Translations under genes and position numbers: made by a program
Source: Mesorhizobium sp.
GTDB lineage: Bacteria > Pseudomonadota > Alphaproteobacteria > Rhizobiales > Rhizobiaceae
Reading direction: 5' to 3'
NCBI GenBank assembly: GCA_027492275.1
Contig: JAPUFC010000003.1
Span: 1-64,000 of the forward strand
Length of the DNA: 64,000 nt
Part shown: positions 60,587-64,000 of the stretch, piece after piece
Layout: every line of letters begins with the position of its first letter
How positions within the stretch are numbered: the first letter of the stretch is position 1
The notes under the pieces: generated by a model
Seen by the model: the letters and a program-made list of their open reading frames with translations, nothing else
The model's database searches: none
What the model was told of the DNA's origin: nothing

Positions 60587-60661
60587 GCGCCCATCGTCTA
60601 GCGGTCAGGACGGCGCCCTCTCACGGCGCAAACCGGGGTTCGATTCCCCGTGGGCGTACCA
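60587..60661 (+). tRNA. tRNA-Glu(CTC)
   Basis: The 75-base sequence folds as a complete cloverleaf. The acceptor is GCGCCCA with TGGGCGT (first pair G-T), the D arm GTC/GAC, the anticodon stem GCGCC/GGCGC around the loop CTCTCAC with anticodon CTC, the T arm CGGGG/CCCCG around TTCGATT, and CCA is encoded. It decodes GAG as glutamate. tRNA 3' ends are common integration sites, and the sequence changes character right after it. Confidence 0.97.
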
Positions 60662-60705
60662 ATCCTTCCAAAAAGCGATGTGATTTCAGAGGCTTGCAAG
60701 GGTCG

Positions 60706-61429: not shown

Positions 61430-63778
61430 CTACTGATCTACATCGTCGAAGATCGAGCGATTCGCGGCTGGTGGTTGGCTCGAACTCGATTGCCGTCGCT
61501 GCGTCACGATATGCGTCCAGTCGCTATCGTCTTCGGACTCCTCATCCCGCTCGCGCTTGCGGTCTTCAATCGACTCAACCGAACGCTTGACGCTTTCCCG
61601 AACGTCATAAACGAGCATTTCGGCGTGCTCATCGATTCCAATCGCCTCGACGCGGTCGATTACTGCCAACAGCTTCTTGAAGTGACTGTCCGGCTCTTCG
61701 TCGAGATCGGCATCAGCGGCAATTTCTTCGATCCGCTCTTTAAGTGCAGGCAGCATCTTGGTCCGCAGCGCCAACCCCAACTTAACCAGACGAAGCGGCG
61801 GAACTAGCGCTAGCAGTTCGGGATCGTCAAAGAACGATGCGTCGAAATCATCTAGGACCGCGCGCTCGAGCGCATCTGCTGCCTCGAGTCGAATATCTTC
61901 ATCGAGCATTCCCATCGCATATGCACGCGCGAACATCGCGAGCTGAGGGTCATTGGACGCCAGGTCGGTCGTCCAGCAAAAGCGTTTCAGGATGGCGGGG
62001 AATTGCCGCATCACCTTGCTGAAGACCGCGCCGCTGGCGCGATAAGCAAGGAATTGGAACAACATCCAGTTGCGGTGCCGTTCGTCGGGCGTCCGGCCAA
62101 GCCGGTCGACGAGCGCGTCGTCAAGGGCGGCAGGGATCACGAGCGCGTCCCGGATGAGCGGGGATTCCTCGCAGGTAAAACTACTCAGGATGGTGTCGAC
62201 GGTGGCGCCGCGGATTAGGGCGGCCATCATATGTGGCTTCTGACGCAAGATCTCGGTCAACGCGTCTGAAATTGTTGGGTGAGAGAACGTCCATTTTGCG
62301 CCAGAAAGTTTCAGGAACGAGCCTTTGAGTTCACCAAAACAGTCCTGAATTCTTGTGAGGCTGAACCCAGTCAGTTCGGCCACCGCCCGTGCGGCGGAGG
62401 AATCATGATCGGCAGCATCGAAGCCAGCCTGATGCACATAGATAAGGATGAGGGCTGCTTGGAGTTGCGCGTCCAGCGCGTTGATGGTGTCGATCAGATG
62501 CTCACGCGGTTCTTTCATGAACCGGACCAGCGATTCCTCACGCGGCACCAAACCCTTGGTAAAACTTGGGTCGCCTAGGCGCTCGGCGATCCCTGGCAGG
62601 AAATCACGAACCGCGGCAACGGCGATGAGGTGCGGTTTGACGCTCGTCCGCCAGCTTTGGCTTTGACCGCCGAAATTGATGTGGTTGTAGAGGATCTGTG
62701 ACTTTTCCTCGCTGGTCAGATCGCCGACATCGACCACCGCACTGCCATTGGAGAACTGCGGCAGGTTACGCTGGCCGAGACGGAGGCGCGCGGCTTCGTA
62801 GATGTGCTTTCGCGACGTCAGCAGAAAGCGGTTGCCATGCGCGATCGCCGCGCGAAGCTTGGCGAATGCCGACATCCAATCCTGAACATAGTCATTACGC
62901 AGGACGTTCGGGCCGAAGGCATCGTCGATCCAGAAGAACCGTCCAGGATCGTTCGGATTCCAGCCCGCCTCGAAATCGCGTGGGCTTGTCAGGGCGAGCA
63001 CGGTGCTATCCGGATTTTCGGACGCGATCGTGGAGATGATCGCCCCGATCGCGGACTTGCCGCTTGAGGGATTGCCGAGCAGCAGGACAACACCATGTTC
63101 GGCAATCGCATGGACCGCGTCACGATGCGCTCGGGTCGGCACATAGGTGCGTAGTTTGGGGATCCAGCTGTCGAGCAGCGCGCGGCTCTGTTCGGTCAGA
63201 CGCTCGTCGATGATGGCGGTGAGATCCCCCAAGCCGTAGACTTGCGGGACGAGCGCGCGCAGCCGGGCACTGCTGCGGATGGTGCGGATGATATATTGCC
63301 TGCCGAGAATGTGTGGTTTGCGGACACCGAGCGAGCGAAGGCGTACGCGGATTTCGGCTGCCACCGGGGCATCGACGGTCATGTTCGTCATGAACGCGTA
63401 GGTGTCGGCCAGCCCAGCTTTCACCAGCTCTTCGACATGCGCGATCTCAGGGGTTAGATCGCTCGGTCGAAGCGATTTCGCAGCGTCCGATGTGTGTTTG
63501 CATTGCACGGTACCTACCGGCGTGGTGCCGGTTTGGCCGCGAACGAGAAAGACCGCGTCCTGCCCGCCGTCCTGCGCCTCGCGATAAATCTCGACGGGCT
63601 GGCGCAGAACCACCTCACAAACCTGCGAGCACAAATCCTGAAACGCCCGCCAGCCGATCGTATGCAGCGCGAGGTCAGACCATGGTCCGGCGGCCACCCG
63701 CACCCGGCGTTCGCGCTCCGGCTCTGCGCCGGTTATCAGTTGCTCCCAATGCTGCATGGGCAGTCCAGCTTTGTGCAT
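61430..63778 (-). CDS. Mrr-like nuclease / nSTAND3 NTPase fusion, candidate antiviral STAND protein
   Basis: The 782-residue protein has three parts. Residues about 40-170 are a PD-(D/E)xK endonuclease-type domain: WRAFQDLCSQVCE, GGQDAVF (Asp74) and VQCKH (Gln92-x-Lys94), the Mrr arrangement. Residues about 205-400 are a P-loop NTPase with Walker A GNPSSGKS (235-242), Walker B FFWIDDAFG (Asp285-Asp286) and RFLLTSRKHIY (318-328), matching the novel STAND NTPase 3 type. The rest (about 400-782) is helical and ends in an acidic segment and a Ser/Gln/Pro tail; it is the likely sensor. STAND proteins with nuclease ends act in phage defence by cutting DNA on detection of phage proteins. ATG 63778 begins two bases after the stop of the upstream gene. 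GC content is lower than in the core genes. Confidence 0.85.
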   Translation of the reverse strand: MHKAGLPMQHWEQLITGAEPERERRVRVAAGPWSDLALHTIGWRAFQDLCSQVCEVVLRQPVEIYREAQDGGQDAVFLVRGQTGTTPVGTVQCKHTSDAAKSLRPSDLTPEIAHVEELVKAGLADTYAFMTNMTVDAPVAAEIRVRLRSLGVRKPHILGRQYIIRTIRSSARLRALVPQVYGLGDLTAIIDERLTEQSRALLDSWIPKLRTYVPTRAHRDAVHAIAEHGVVLLLGNPSSGKSAIGAIISTIASENPDSTVLALTSPRDFEAGWNPNDPGRFFWIDDAFGPNVLRNDYVQDWMSAFAKLRAAIAHGNRFLLTSRKHIYEAARLRLGQRNLPQFSNGSAVVDVGDLTSEEKSQILYNHINFGGQSQSWRTSVKPHLIAVAAVRDFLPGIAERLGDPSFTKGLVPREESLVRFMKEPREHLIDTINALDAQLQAALILIYVHQAGFDAADHDSSAARAVAELTGFSLTRIQDCFGELKGSFLKLSGAKWTFSHPTISDALTEILRQKPHMMAALIRGATVDTILSSFTCEESPLIRDALVIPAALDDALVDRLGRTPDERHRNWMLFQFLAYRASGAVFSKVMRQFPAILKRFCWTTDLASNDPQLAMFARAYAMGMLDEDIRLEAADALERAVLDDFDASFFDDPELLALVPPLRLVKLGLALRTKMLPALKERIEEIAADADLDEEPDSHFKKLLAVIDRVEAIGIDEHAEMLVYDVRESVKRSVESIEDRKRERDEESEDDSDWTHIVTQRRQSSSSQPPAANRSIFDDVDQ

Positions 63779-63780
63779 GA

Positions 63781-64000
63781 TCAAAGAACTGTGATTCGCG
63801 GCTTCGCCTTGCCAACGAGCCGTATATCATCCACTGTGCCATACGCGCCGTTCCATTCGCGCAGTATCGCCCCGACCTTTTCGATATAGAGAAGGCCATC
63901 TGGCAGCGGCCCGAAGGGCTCGAGTTCTGCGCCGTCACAGATATCGACTAGAAATTGTTGCAGCTTCTCCCGCAGCTCTGAATCGCCACTCACGCGCATA
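63781..64000 (-). CDS. Small protein directly upstream of the nuclease-STAND gene, partial
   Basis: The frame is open to the right edge. At least 72 residues are visible from ATG 63999 (SELREKLQQFLVDICDGAELE, PFGPLPDGLLYIEKVGAILREWNGAYG, ending RLVGKAKPRITVL), but the true start may lie beyond the window. It ends two bases before the ATG of the STAND gene, so the two are surely co-translated. The sequence is mixed alpha/beta with no motif I recognise. A cofactor, sensor or immunity partner of the STAND protein are all possible. Confidence 0.55.
   Translation of the reverse strand, partial: MRVSGDSELREKLQQFLVDICDGAELEPFGPLPDGLLYIEKVGAILREWNGAYGTVDDIRLVGKAKPRITVL

Follow-up and report, generated by a model that had tools for sequence, protein, structure and literature searches.

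The window examined here, the whole stretch of 64,000 nucleotides (nt) from the start of Mesorhizobium sp. contig JAPUFC010000003.1, contains close to its right end a gene that joins an Mrr-type nuclease to an nSTAND3 ATPase. This nuclease-STAND gene follows a gene for an OLD-family ATPase-TOPRIM protein, which reaches across the window end at 64000 into the remainder of the contig (124,535 bases). The TGA stop codon of the OLD partner overlaps the TTG start codon of the nuclease-STAND gene or, if the ATG is taken as the start, sits 2 nt before it; because the gene ends overlap, the two genes are probably translationally coupled. From the TTG at 63784 the frame is open for 784 codons, and the ATG at 63778, the next start inside it, would give 782 amino acids. 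The original prediction, made from the letters of the window, had treated the product as a lone effector. That account was incomplete: the gene is the second of an OLD pair, its close relatives stand directly behind various defence genes, and the OLD partner overlapping the start rules out the lone-effector reading. The features of the pair are listed below, with model confidence given as the predicted local distance difference test score (pLDDT).

61430..63784, minus strand: nuclease-STAND gene, Mrr-type nuclease and nSTAND3 (open reading frame, Pfam, PADLOC PDC-S73, alignment, model)
63251..63664, minus strand: nuclease domain, residues 41-178 (Mrr_cat match, invariant columns, alpha/beta in the model)
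62672..63142, minus strand: nSTAND3 ATPase, residues 215-371, Walker A GNPSSGKS and Walker B FFWIDDAFG (PF20720, Avs5 STAND alignment)
62240..62524, minus strand: helices and a beta-hairpin, residues 421-515, winged-helix-like in our own reading of the model (model secondary structure, block pLDDT 65-86)
61529..62131, minus strand: all-alpha C-terminal bundle, residues 552-752, no repeat named (model, block pLDDT 71-93)
61433..61462, minus strand: C-terminal tail NRSIFDDVDQ behind a low-confidence linker of pLDDT <50 (alignment and model)
Contig 63781-65712, minus strand: OLD-family ATPase-TOPRIM partner, 643 amino acids (Pfam, PADLOC); its 3' 220 nt (63781..64000) lie in the window

Domains and predicted structure of the pair

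The original prediction had named a PD-(D/E)xK nuclease, a STAND-type P-loop ATPase, intact catalytic residues and a helical C-terminus with no nameable repeat, and each of these was recovered. The window protein is matched by PF20720 (nSTAND3) at residues 214-371 (E 2.5e-34, over the Pfam cut-off) and by Mrr_cat at residues 41-142 (E 0.016, under its cut-off). Across an alignment of 17 members with identity down to 30% (A2), from which the broken copy L011 was excluded, nSTAND3 is reached by all 17 proteins and Mrr_cat at E <= 0.01 by 10. Counted from the TTG start, the motifs GGQD, VQCKH, GNPSSGKS and FFWIDDAFG occupy residues 73-76, 93-97, 237-244 and 283-291. In particular, D72, G74, D76, Q94, K96, G237, P239, G242, K243, D287 and D288 are invariant in all members of A2; K243 and K96 are the Lys241 and Lys94 of the earlier numbering. 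The model shows a helical C-terminus. In a PADLOC scan at E <= 1, the protein matched PDC-S73 (residues 46-379, E 4.8e-21) and LmuA (residues 47-135, E 0.002) alone, with no match to an Avs family profile, and a sequence search of solved structures returned a single chance match (E 0.64).

The OLD partner contains AAA_15 (E 3.7e-23) and an OLD-like TOPRIM domain (E 1.4e-7) and is assigned to Old by PADLOC (E 2.5e-60). It retains GKNNSGKST, LLIDEPE, VEGDTE and DVD, which we take to be the motifs of an intact ATPase and an intact TOPRIM domain.

An earlier structural model of the nuclease-STAND protein had 9 close sequences as input and was of poor quality (pLDDT 52.6). The model used here is a second one from 11 sequences, which include two with 42% and two with 18-19% identity (mean pLDDT 71.6, predicted template-modelling score (pTM) 0.45). 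The structure prediction, like the profile searches, had been proposed as a check, and the searches yielded nuclease and STAND matches and the model Avs proteins among its best matches: Foldseek ranked Avs3, Avs4, SAMD9 and Avs5 highest, followed by a plant NLR and RuvB. E values for Avs3, Avs4 and Avs5 lie between 1e-7 and 4e-5, with low whole-chain template-modelling (TM) scores of 0.14-0.18. In a second structure comparison, the STAND part of Avs5 reached Z 12.5 (root-mean-square deviation 2.6, 122 aligned residues). Matches to the ATPase domain take up the list, and because unrelated ATPases come next, at Z 11.6 and lower, Avs5 stands barely above the field (about 1 Z unit). As far as the model goes, the fold comparison supports an Avs-like domain order and not Avs membership.

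After the low-confidence linker, the tail motif [RHQ]S[IVLR]F[DR]D[VI]D recurs in 13 of the 17 aligned members, to 30% identity, and relatives on viral contigs at 43% identity end in RSIFSDVD plus one residue. This conserved tail looks like a short binding motif.

Exchange of the upstream partner

Fifteen close loci, whose nuclease-STAND proteins share 65-80% identity, were compared: the present one, L004-L011, L017, L018, L019, L026, L030 and L033. The upstream side is readable in 14 of them, since the contig of L009 stops before the partner. A co-directional gene lies at -4 to +4 nt upstream in 12 of the 14, and the partners in these 12, together with that of L033 at +37, form seven classes (distances in nt):

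OLDa: the present locus (-4 or +2), L010 (+3)
OLDb: L018, L030 (-4)
PrrC-like PDC-S06, type a: L004, L006, L011 (-4)
PrrC-like PDC-S06, type b: L007 (0)
Sir2-like gene, middle component and SMC-like ATPase, an ABC three-component-like (ABC-3C-like) set: L005, L008, L026 (-4)
MarR-type winged helix-turn-helix (wHTH) and nucleotidyltransferase (NTase)-like pair: L017 (-4); the second protein gave no profile hit and its motif was seen by eye
SMC-like protein, 855 amino acids: L033 (+37)
No class: L019, with only a GNAT gene, 253 nt upstream

The original prediction had suggested inspecting the neighbours of homologues, and this proved telling: 13 of the 14 close loci sit behind a known or candidate defence gene or, in L017, a lookalike. 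Between classes the partners share at most about 24% identity over some 260 residues (OLDa versus OLDb) and otherwise short ATPase stretches. Within the L008 set, Sir2 (E 1.6e-4) and MComp1 (E 0.005) both score below the Pfam cut-offs, and the Sir2-like and middle genes of L005 and L026 were identified by position and visible likeness only. LmuB scores were 4.3e-26 for the ABC-3C-like partner of L008 and 2e-23 for the partner of L033.

The nuclease-STAND proteins can be aligned over their full length across classes. By BLASTN, the 1.5 kb upstream of the 14 loci shows similarity within a partner class only (69-99% identity) and none across classes, which places the point of exchange near the start codon; similarity ends at about the stop codon, and shared stretches downstream are short and restricted to the PrrC-like a and OLDb classes. 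On the tree of the family, the seven classes need at least six changes, which equals the class number minus one. Classes with several members form starred forks, except for the two OLDa rows, which did not resolve, and 9 of the 17 inner branches are weak. Moreover, upstream identity reaches 98.7% between the cassettes of L004 (Rhizobiales) and L006 (Paracoccus) and 90% between the L005 and L008 cassettes (Alcaligenaceae, Paracoccaceae), so partner and add-on move jointly between distant hosts. The leader of the add-on, its first ~25 residues, varies in length and letters without following the partner class (PrrC-like and NTase loci both show MTAGD), which speaks against a partner-specific dock in the N-terminus.

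The background frequency of tight junctions was estimated from two 49-kb stretches of Alphaproteobacterial plasmids, a small and arbitrary choice of records that also carry the gene and were not picked as defence islands. Among 92 adjacent gene pairs, 15 are co-directional at -4 to +4 nt, 18 at -30 to +10 and 7 at exactly -4. With each class counted once and L019 as a class of its own, 6 of 8 classes are tight, which gives a rough P of ~0.0004 against this control, or 0.001 for the -30 to +10 range. Attachment of the nuclease-STAND gene to exchanged defence genes is well supported.

Nuclease-ATPase pairs resembling SbcCD or YhaN recur upstream or downstream of OLD and PrrC-like genes (L018, L037, L038, L039 and L060, the last by eye).

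Wider distribution, solitary partners and the surrounding element

Outside the close loci, the gene lies behind an OLD/AriA-like gene at +49 on three viral contigs (43% identity; L045 and L047 carry the same protein). Among the nine loci of a clade at 30-40% identity, the upstream neighbours are as follows where one was seen:

L024: AbiEi-AbiEii, +4 (AbiEii 9.3e-96; AbiEi by annotation)
L025: 289-amino-acid protein without a profile hit, -4
L020: Avs2, +141
L022: PDC-S20, +188
L031: gene of no assigned family, ~200 nt away

At L020 (2150-6790, a Rhizobium plasmid), Avs2 (PADLOC 1.5e-269) stands 141 nt before a divergent nuclease-nSTAND3 gene, so that two STAND proteins follow in a row. An outer PDC-S73 group is represented by four opened plasmid loci: three lack a nearby upstream gene in the same direction, and the fourth has an AAA ATPase at +55. 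L048 and L049 of this group match PDC-S73 at 1.9e-160 and 3e-143, nearly full length in L048; they are ~18-27% identical to the nuclease-STAND subfamily where alignable and differ in the C-terminus. On a viral contig (L053, 5345-6001), an outer PDC-S73 relative overlaps a helix-turn-helix-looking gene by 4 nt (-4), which suggests that coupling may reach past the nuclease-STAND subfamily.

In the order, matches to the window protein at E 1e-3 occur in 6 of 199 genomes, 3 of them of the full nuclease-STAND type. At E 1e-20, the searches gave 5 matching genomes among 385 for the class, 3 among 398 for the phylum and 4 among 397 for the order, the present genome being counted each time; the only addition from the last search was G1083, which is not taken as a new locus, as it has the same contig number and coordinates as L010. 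Wider sampling was small: the families of G106 and G432 comprise 15 and 4 genomes, and the orders of G432 and G240 comprise 4 and 7. Plasmid records with a match number 21 of 72,556. The possibility of a phage-borne gene was rejected, as 50,697 phage records gave no match at E 1e-5. For viral contigs, a first scan gave nothing, a profile scan the three contigs at 43% identity and a scan with alignment A4 the identical three; a scan with the outer-group alignment A3 returned at least two outer relatives and at least one short match.

Homologues of the partners also occur without the add-on. Ten opened plasmid loci have homologues of the OLDa or PrrC-like partners at 37-58.5% identity, and none of them contains an add-on match in its 4-kb flanks. 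In L060, pTAV4 of Paracoccus versutus, an OLDb protein of 84% identity ends at the corresponding place with no add-on behind it; DNA similarity between pTAV4 and L018 stops ~9-12 nt before the add-on start, and an SbcD-looking gene follows 33 nt on. A Methylobacterium SMC-like homologue (55%) has no add-on match within 5 kb, and a Shinella NTase-like pair (52%) is followed by insertion sequence genes, by annotation. In an Acetobacter locus (L040, 571-6268), type I restriction genes are followed after 244 nt by a PrrC-like gene that lacks the add-on.

Broken copies were found as well. At L011 (7965-10273) the add-on is frameshifted and has Q at position 243 in place of the Walker A lysine, and at L026 (6938-7333) its similarity ends at about residue 117; in both loci the partner frame is full length. 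A transposase-looking frame on the other strand overlaps the end of the cut-short add-on of L026.

The neighbourhood of the Mesorhizobium pair further includes:

60587..60661, plus strand: tRNA-Glu(CTC) (tRNA call)
Contig 66360-67418: tyrosine recombinase (profile match)
Contig 71221-71823: serine resolvase (profile match)

An exact 17-nt copy of the 3' end of tRNA-Glu (60647-60663) lies at contig 84427-84443, the single match of words >=14 from a 134-nt probe over 40 kb of both strands. Given this repeat, the tyrosine recombinase and the serine resolvase, contig 60647-84443 is probably a 23.8-kb integrated element that has the OLD/nuclease-STAND pair at the end next to the tRNA. In 2-kb steps, the DNA flanked by the two copies has a G+C of 0.59-0.66 and the DNA on its right 0.65-0.70, and the two ranges meet. 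The adjacent tRNA and the AT-richer segment had both been noticed in the original prediction and are confirmed: G+C is 0.57-0.61 at 61-64 kb against mostly 0.64-0.74 before 56 kb, although 56-58 kb is also low. LysR-type and hydantoinase-like genes were recognised by eye in the element.

Candidate roles and relation to known systems

Taken as a whole, the best explanation, to which we assign a probability of about 0.5, is a portable Avs-like immune switch that is coupled to defence genes and likely acts as a second layer. An Avs-type switch is favoured by the order of the domains, the intact residues and the fold. The nSTAND3 ATPase would keep the Mrr nuclease inactive. Upon reading a trigger, possibly of phage origin, the C-terminal half would promote oligomerisation, which in turn would free the nuclease to cut DNA; the DNA would be cleared or the cell killed, and infection would be stopped. 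The add-on coding sequence has been attached repeatedly, at its start codon, to the 3' ends of unrelated defence genes that are also found without it, and translational coupling would ensure that it is made in step with the first system, here the OLD-family ATPase-TOPRIM protein. Its likeliest use would be as a second layer that acts once the first has been overcome. As a more specific and still tentative proposal, the family may be a general-purpose second layer, joined to whichever abortive defence gene is present, translationally coupled to that gene and firing on the defeat of the first layer. Homologues of the partners occur by themselves, as do some relatives of the add-on, which favours a second, independent layer over a joint machine.

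Several observations weigh against this reading. Two of the 14 close loci depart from the tight pattern (L033 at +37 and L019 with its GNAT gene 253 nt away), and the distances at L005, L008 and L030 depend on an ATG chosen beside the conserved N-terminus within a longer open frame. Of the nine loci in the 30-40% clade, just two are tight, and four (L021, L023, L032 and L034) lack a co-directional gene, annotated or likely, in the nearest 250 nt; the L021 gene is split by a broken frame and that of L023 has no nuclease part. For the OLDa and PrrC-like partners, the homologues that lack the add-on reach just 37-58.5% identity. The fold match of the whole model is loose (TM 0.14-0.18, pTM 0.45), and Avs5 exceeds unrelated ATPases by only ~1 Z. 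Finally, an ABC-type ATPase is present in 6 of the 7 close-clade partner classes, which a functional link to ABC ATPases would predict and a random back-up add-on would not.

This last point leads to a possible, if doubtful, alternative, namely that partner and add-on form a joint machine with a Lamassu-like logic. An ABC-type partner (OLD, PrrC-like or SMC-like) would sense invading DNA or phage interference and switch on the Mrr-nSTAND3 effector by way of something that ABC ATPases, or their product, have in common. The ABC-type ATPase of the viral-contig partner is consistent with this arrangement, as are the LmuB scores of the ABC-3C-like and L033 partners and the weak LmuA match of the nuclease (E 0.002), and coupling at -4 nt would suit fixed ratios. 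Moreover, a published study describes pairs of OLD-ABC genes and PD-(D/E)XK nucleases in the vicinity of BREX (PMC12839542). However, partners without an ABC ATPase exist (the wHTH/NTase-like pair of L017, AbiE of L024 and, loosely spaced, Avs2 of L020), the variable ~25-residue leader is independent of partner class, and some partners bring parts of their own, the TOPRIM domain of the OLD proteins and the Sir2-like gene of the ABC-3C-like set. It is unlikely that the add-on is a guard which monitors its partner, or the pathway of the partner, and is set off once this has been disabled by anti-defence proteins of a phage. A guard would suit one common protein behind many self-sufficient systems, and PARIS-like OLD modules are discussed as an answer to anti-restriction proteins in the same source (PMC12839542), but one conserved protein would have to recognise the loss of very different partners, and inspection of the alignment by eye revealed no region specific to a partner.

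We consider it improbable that a stand-alone Avs-like gene merely gains expression behind island defence genes with no functional link to them. The absence of a tight defence partner at L019, L021, L023, L032 and L034 and of a close upstream gene at three of the four opened outer PDC-S73 plasmid loci would be expected from such hitch-hiking, whereas the tight spacing of 12 of 14 close loci, compared with 15 of 92 background pairs, and the known, candidate or lookalike (L017) defence partner in 13 of 14 would not. Most partner classes come from families that have toxic or abortive members, as would suit an add-on acting as an antitoxin or silencer of a toxic partner. This role is nevertheless very unlikely, given that partner homologues exist without the add-on and that the broken add-ons of L011 and L026 lie beside full-length partner frames, which argues against a need for restraint.

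Among known systems, the protein most resembles Avs proteins (Avs4, Avs3, Avs5), which share an N-terminal effector, a STAND ATPase and a helical C-terminus and supply the best Foldseek matches; in Avs3 and Avs4 the N-terminal effector is a nuclease. It differs in its length of 784 amino acids, compared with 1534-2028 residues in the solved Avs4 and Avs3 chains, in its one short C-terminal bundle and in its position as second gene behind other defence genes. The Avs-like effector layout of the original prediction therefore holds for the domain order and the Foldseek matches to Avs3, Avs4 and Avs5 but does not extend to membership in Avs1-5: given the lack of a PADLOC Avs profile match, the protein is Avs-like. 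According to a published account, nSTAND3 is also carried by Avs5 (PMC12931631). PDC-S73 shares the Mrr-type nuclease and nSTAND3 with the window protein (E 4.8e-21), yet the match covers about the first half only (46-379) and not the whole length. The findings suggest that PDC-S73 combines two groups, one mostly solo and the other partnered.

The OLD partner has the AAA_15 and TOPRIM domains of Old but, unlike single-gene Old, is paired with the nuclease-STAND gene. Gabija was rejected, as no GajB helicase lies beside the OLD gene, whose neighbours are the nuclease-STAND gene and, as the nearest profile-matched gene on the other side, the tyrosine recombinase. A search of the main text of a review of OLD classes gave no hit for Mrr or STAND (PMC10568477). 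Lamassu and ABC three-component systems likewise combine an ABC ATPase and a nuclease in one operon, and some partners score to LmuB and one weakly to MComp1. Lamassu keeps the ABC part and varies the effector; here the nuclease-STAND protein is constant and the ABC part variable. Lamassu itself was excluded for the present pair, since the best match of its OLD partner is Old, LmuB is not among the best 25 matches and LmuA is reached only at E 0.002. At BREX loci, auxiliary or back-up nucleases, OLD modules included, lie beside the primary system, as one study reports (PMC12839542); there, many nucleases serve one system, whereas here one nuclease family accompanies many systems.

The usual way to classify defence systems is by a constant core that is combined with exchangeable effectors. 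Here the front part is exchangeable and the Avs-like nuclease constant, and the front includes whole, probably self-sufficient systems (OLD, PrrC-like, AbiE and the ABC three-component-like set). Bacterial immunity may thus include a general add-on or a back-up layer, and where OLD or PDC-S06 is called as a single gene, a second component may be missed. Among the titles and abstract beginnings listed from the open-licence literature, no description of one nuclease-STAND family behind many systems was found. Back-up nucleases beside BREX, OLD-ABC/PD-(D/E)XK pairs and the nSTAND3 of Avs5 are known in print; what is possibly new, if the back-up or guard role is true, is the principle, and layered immunity could then be tested on natural pairs of closely related OLD genes with and without the add-on.

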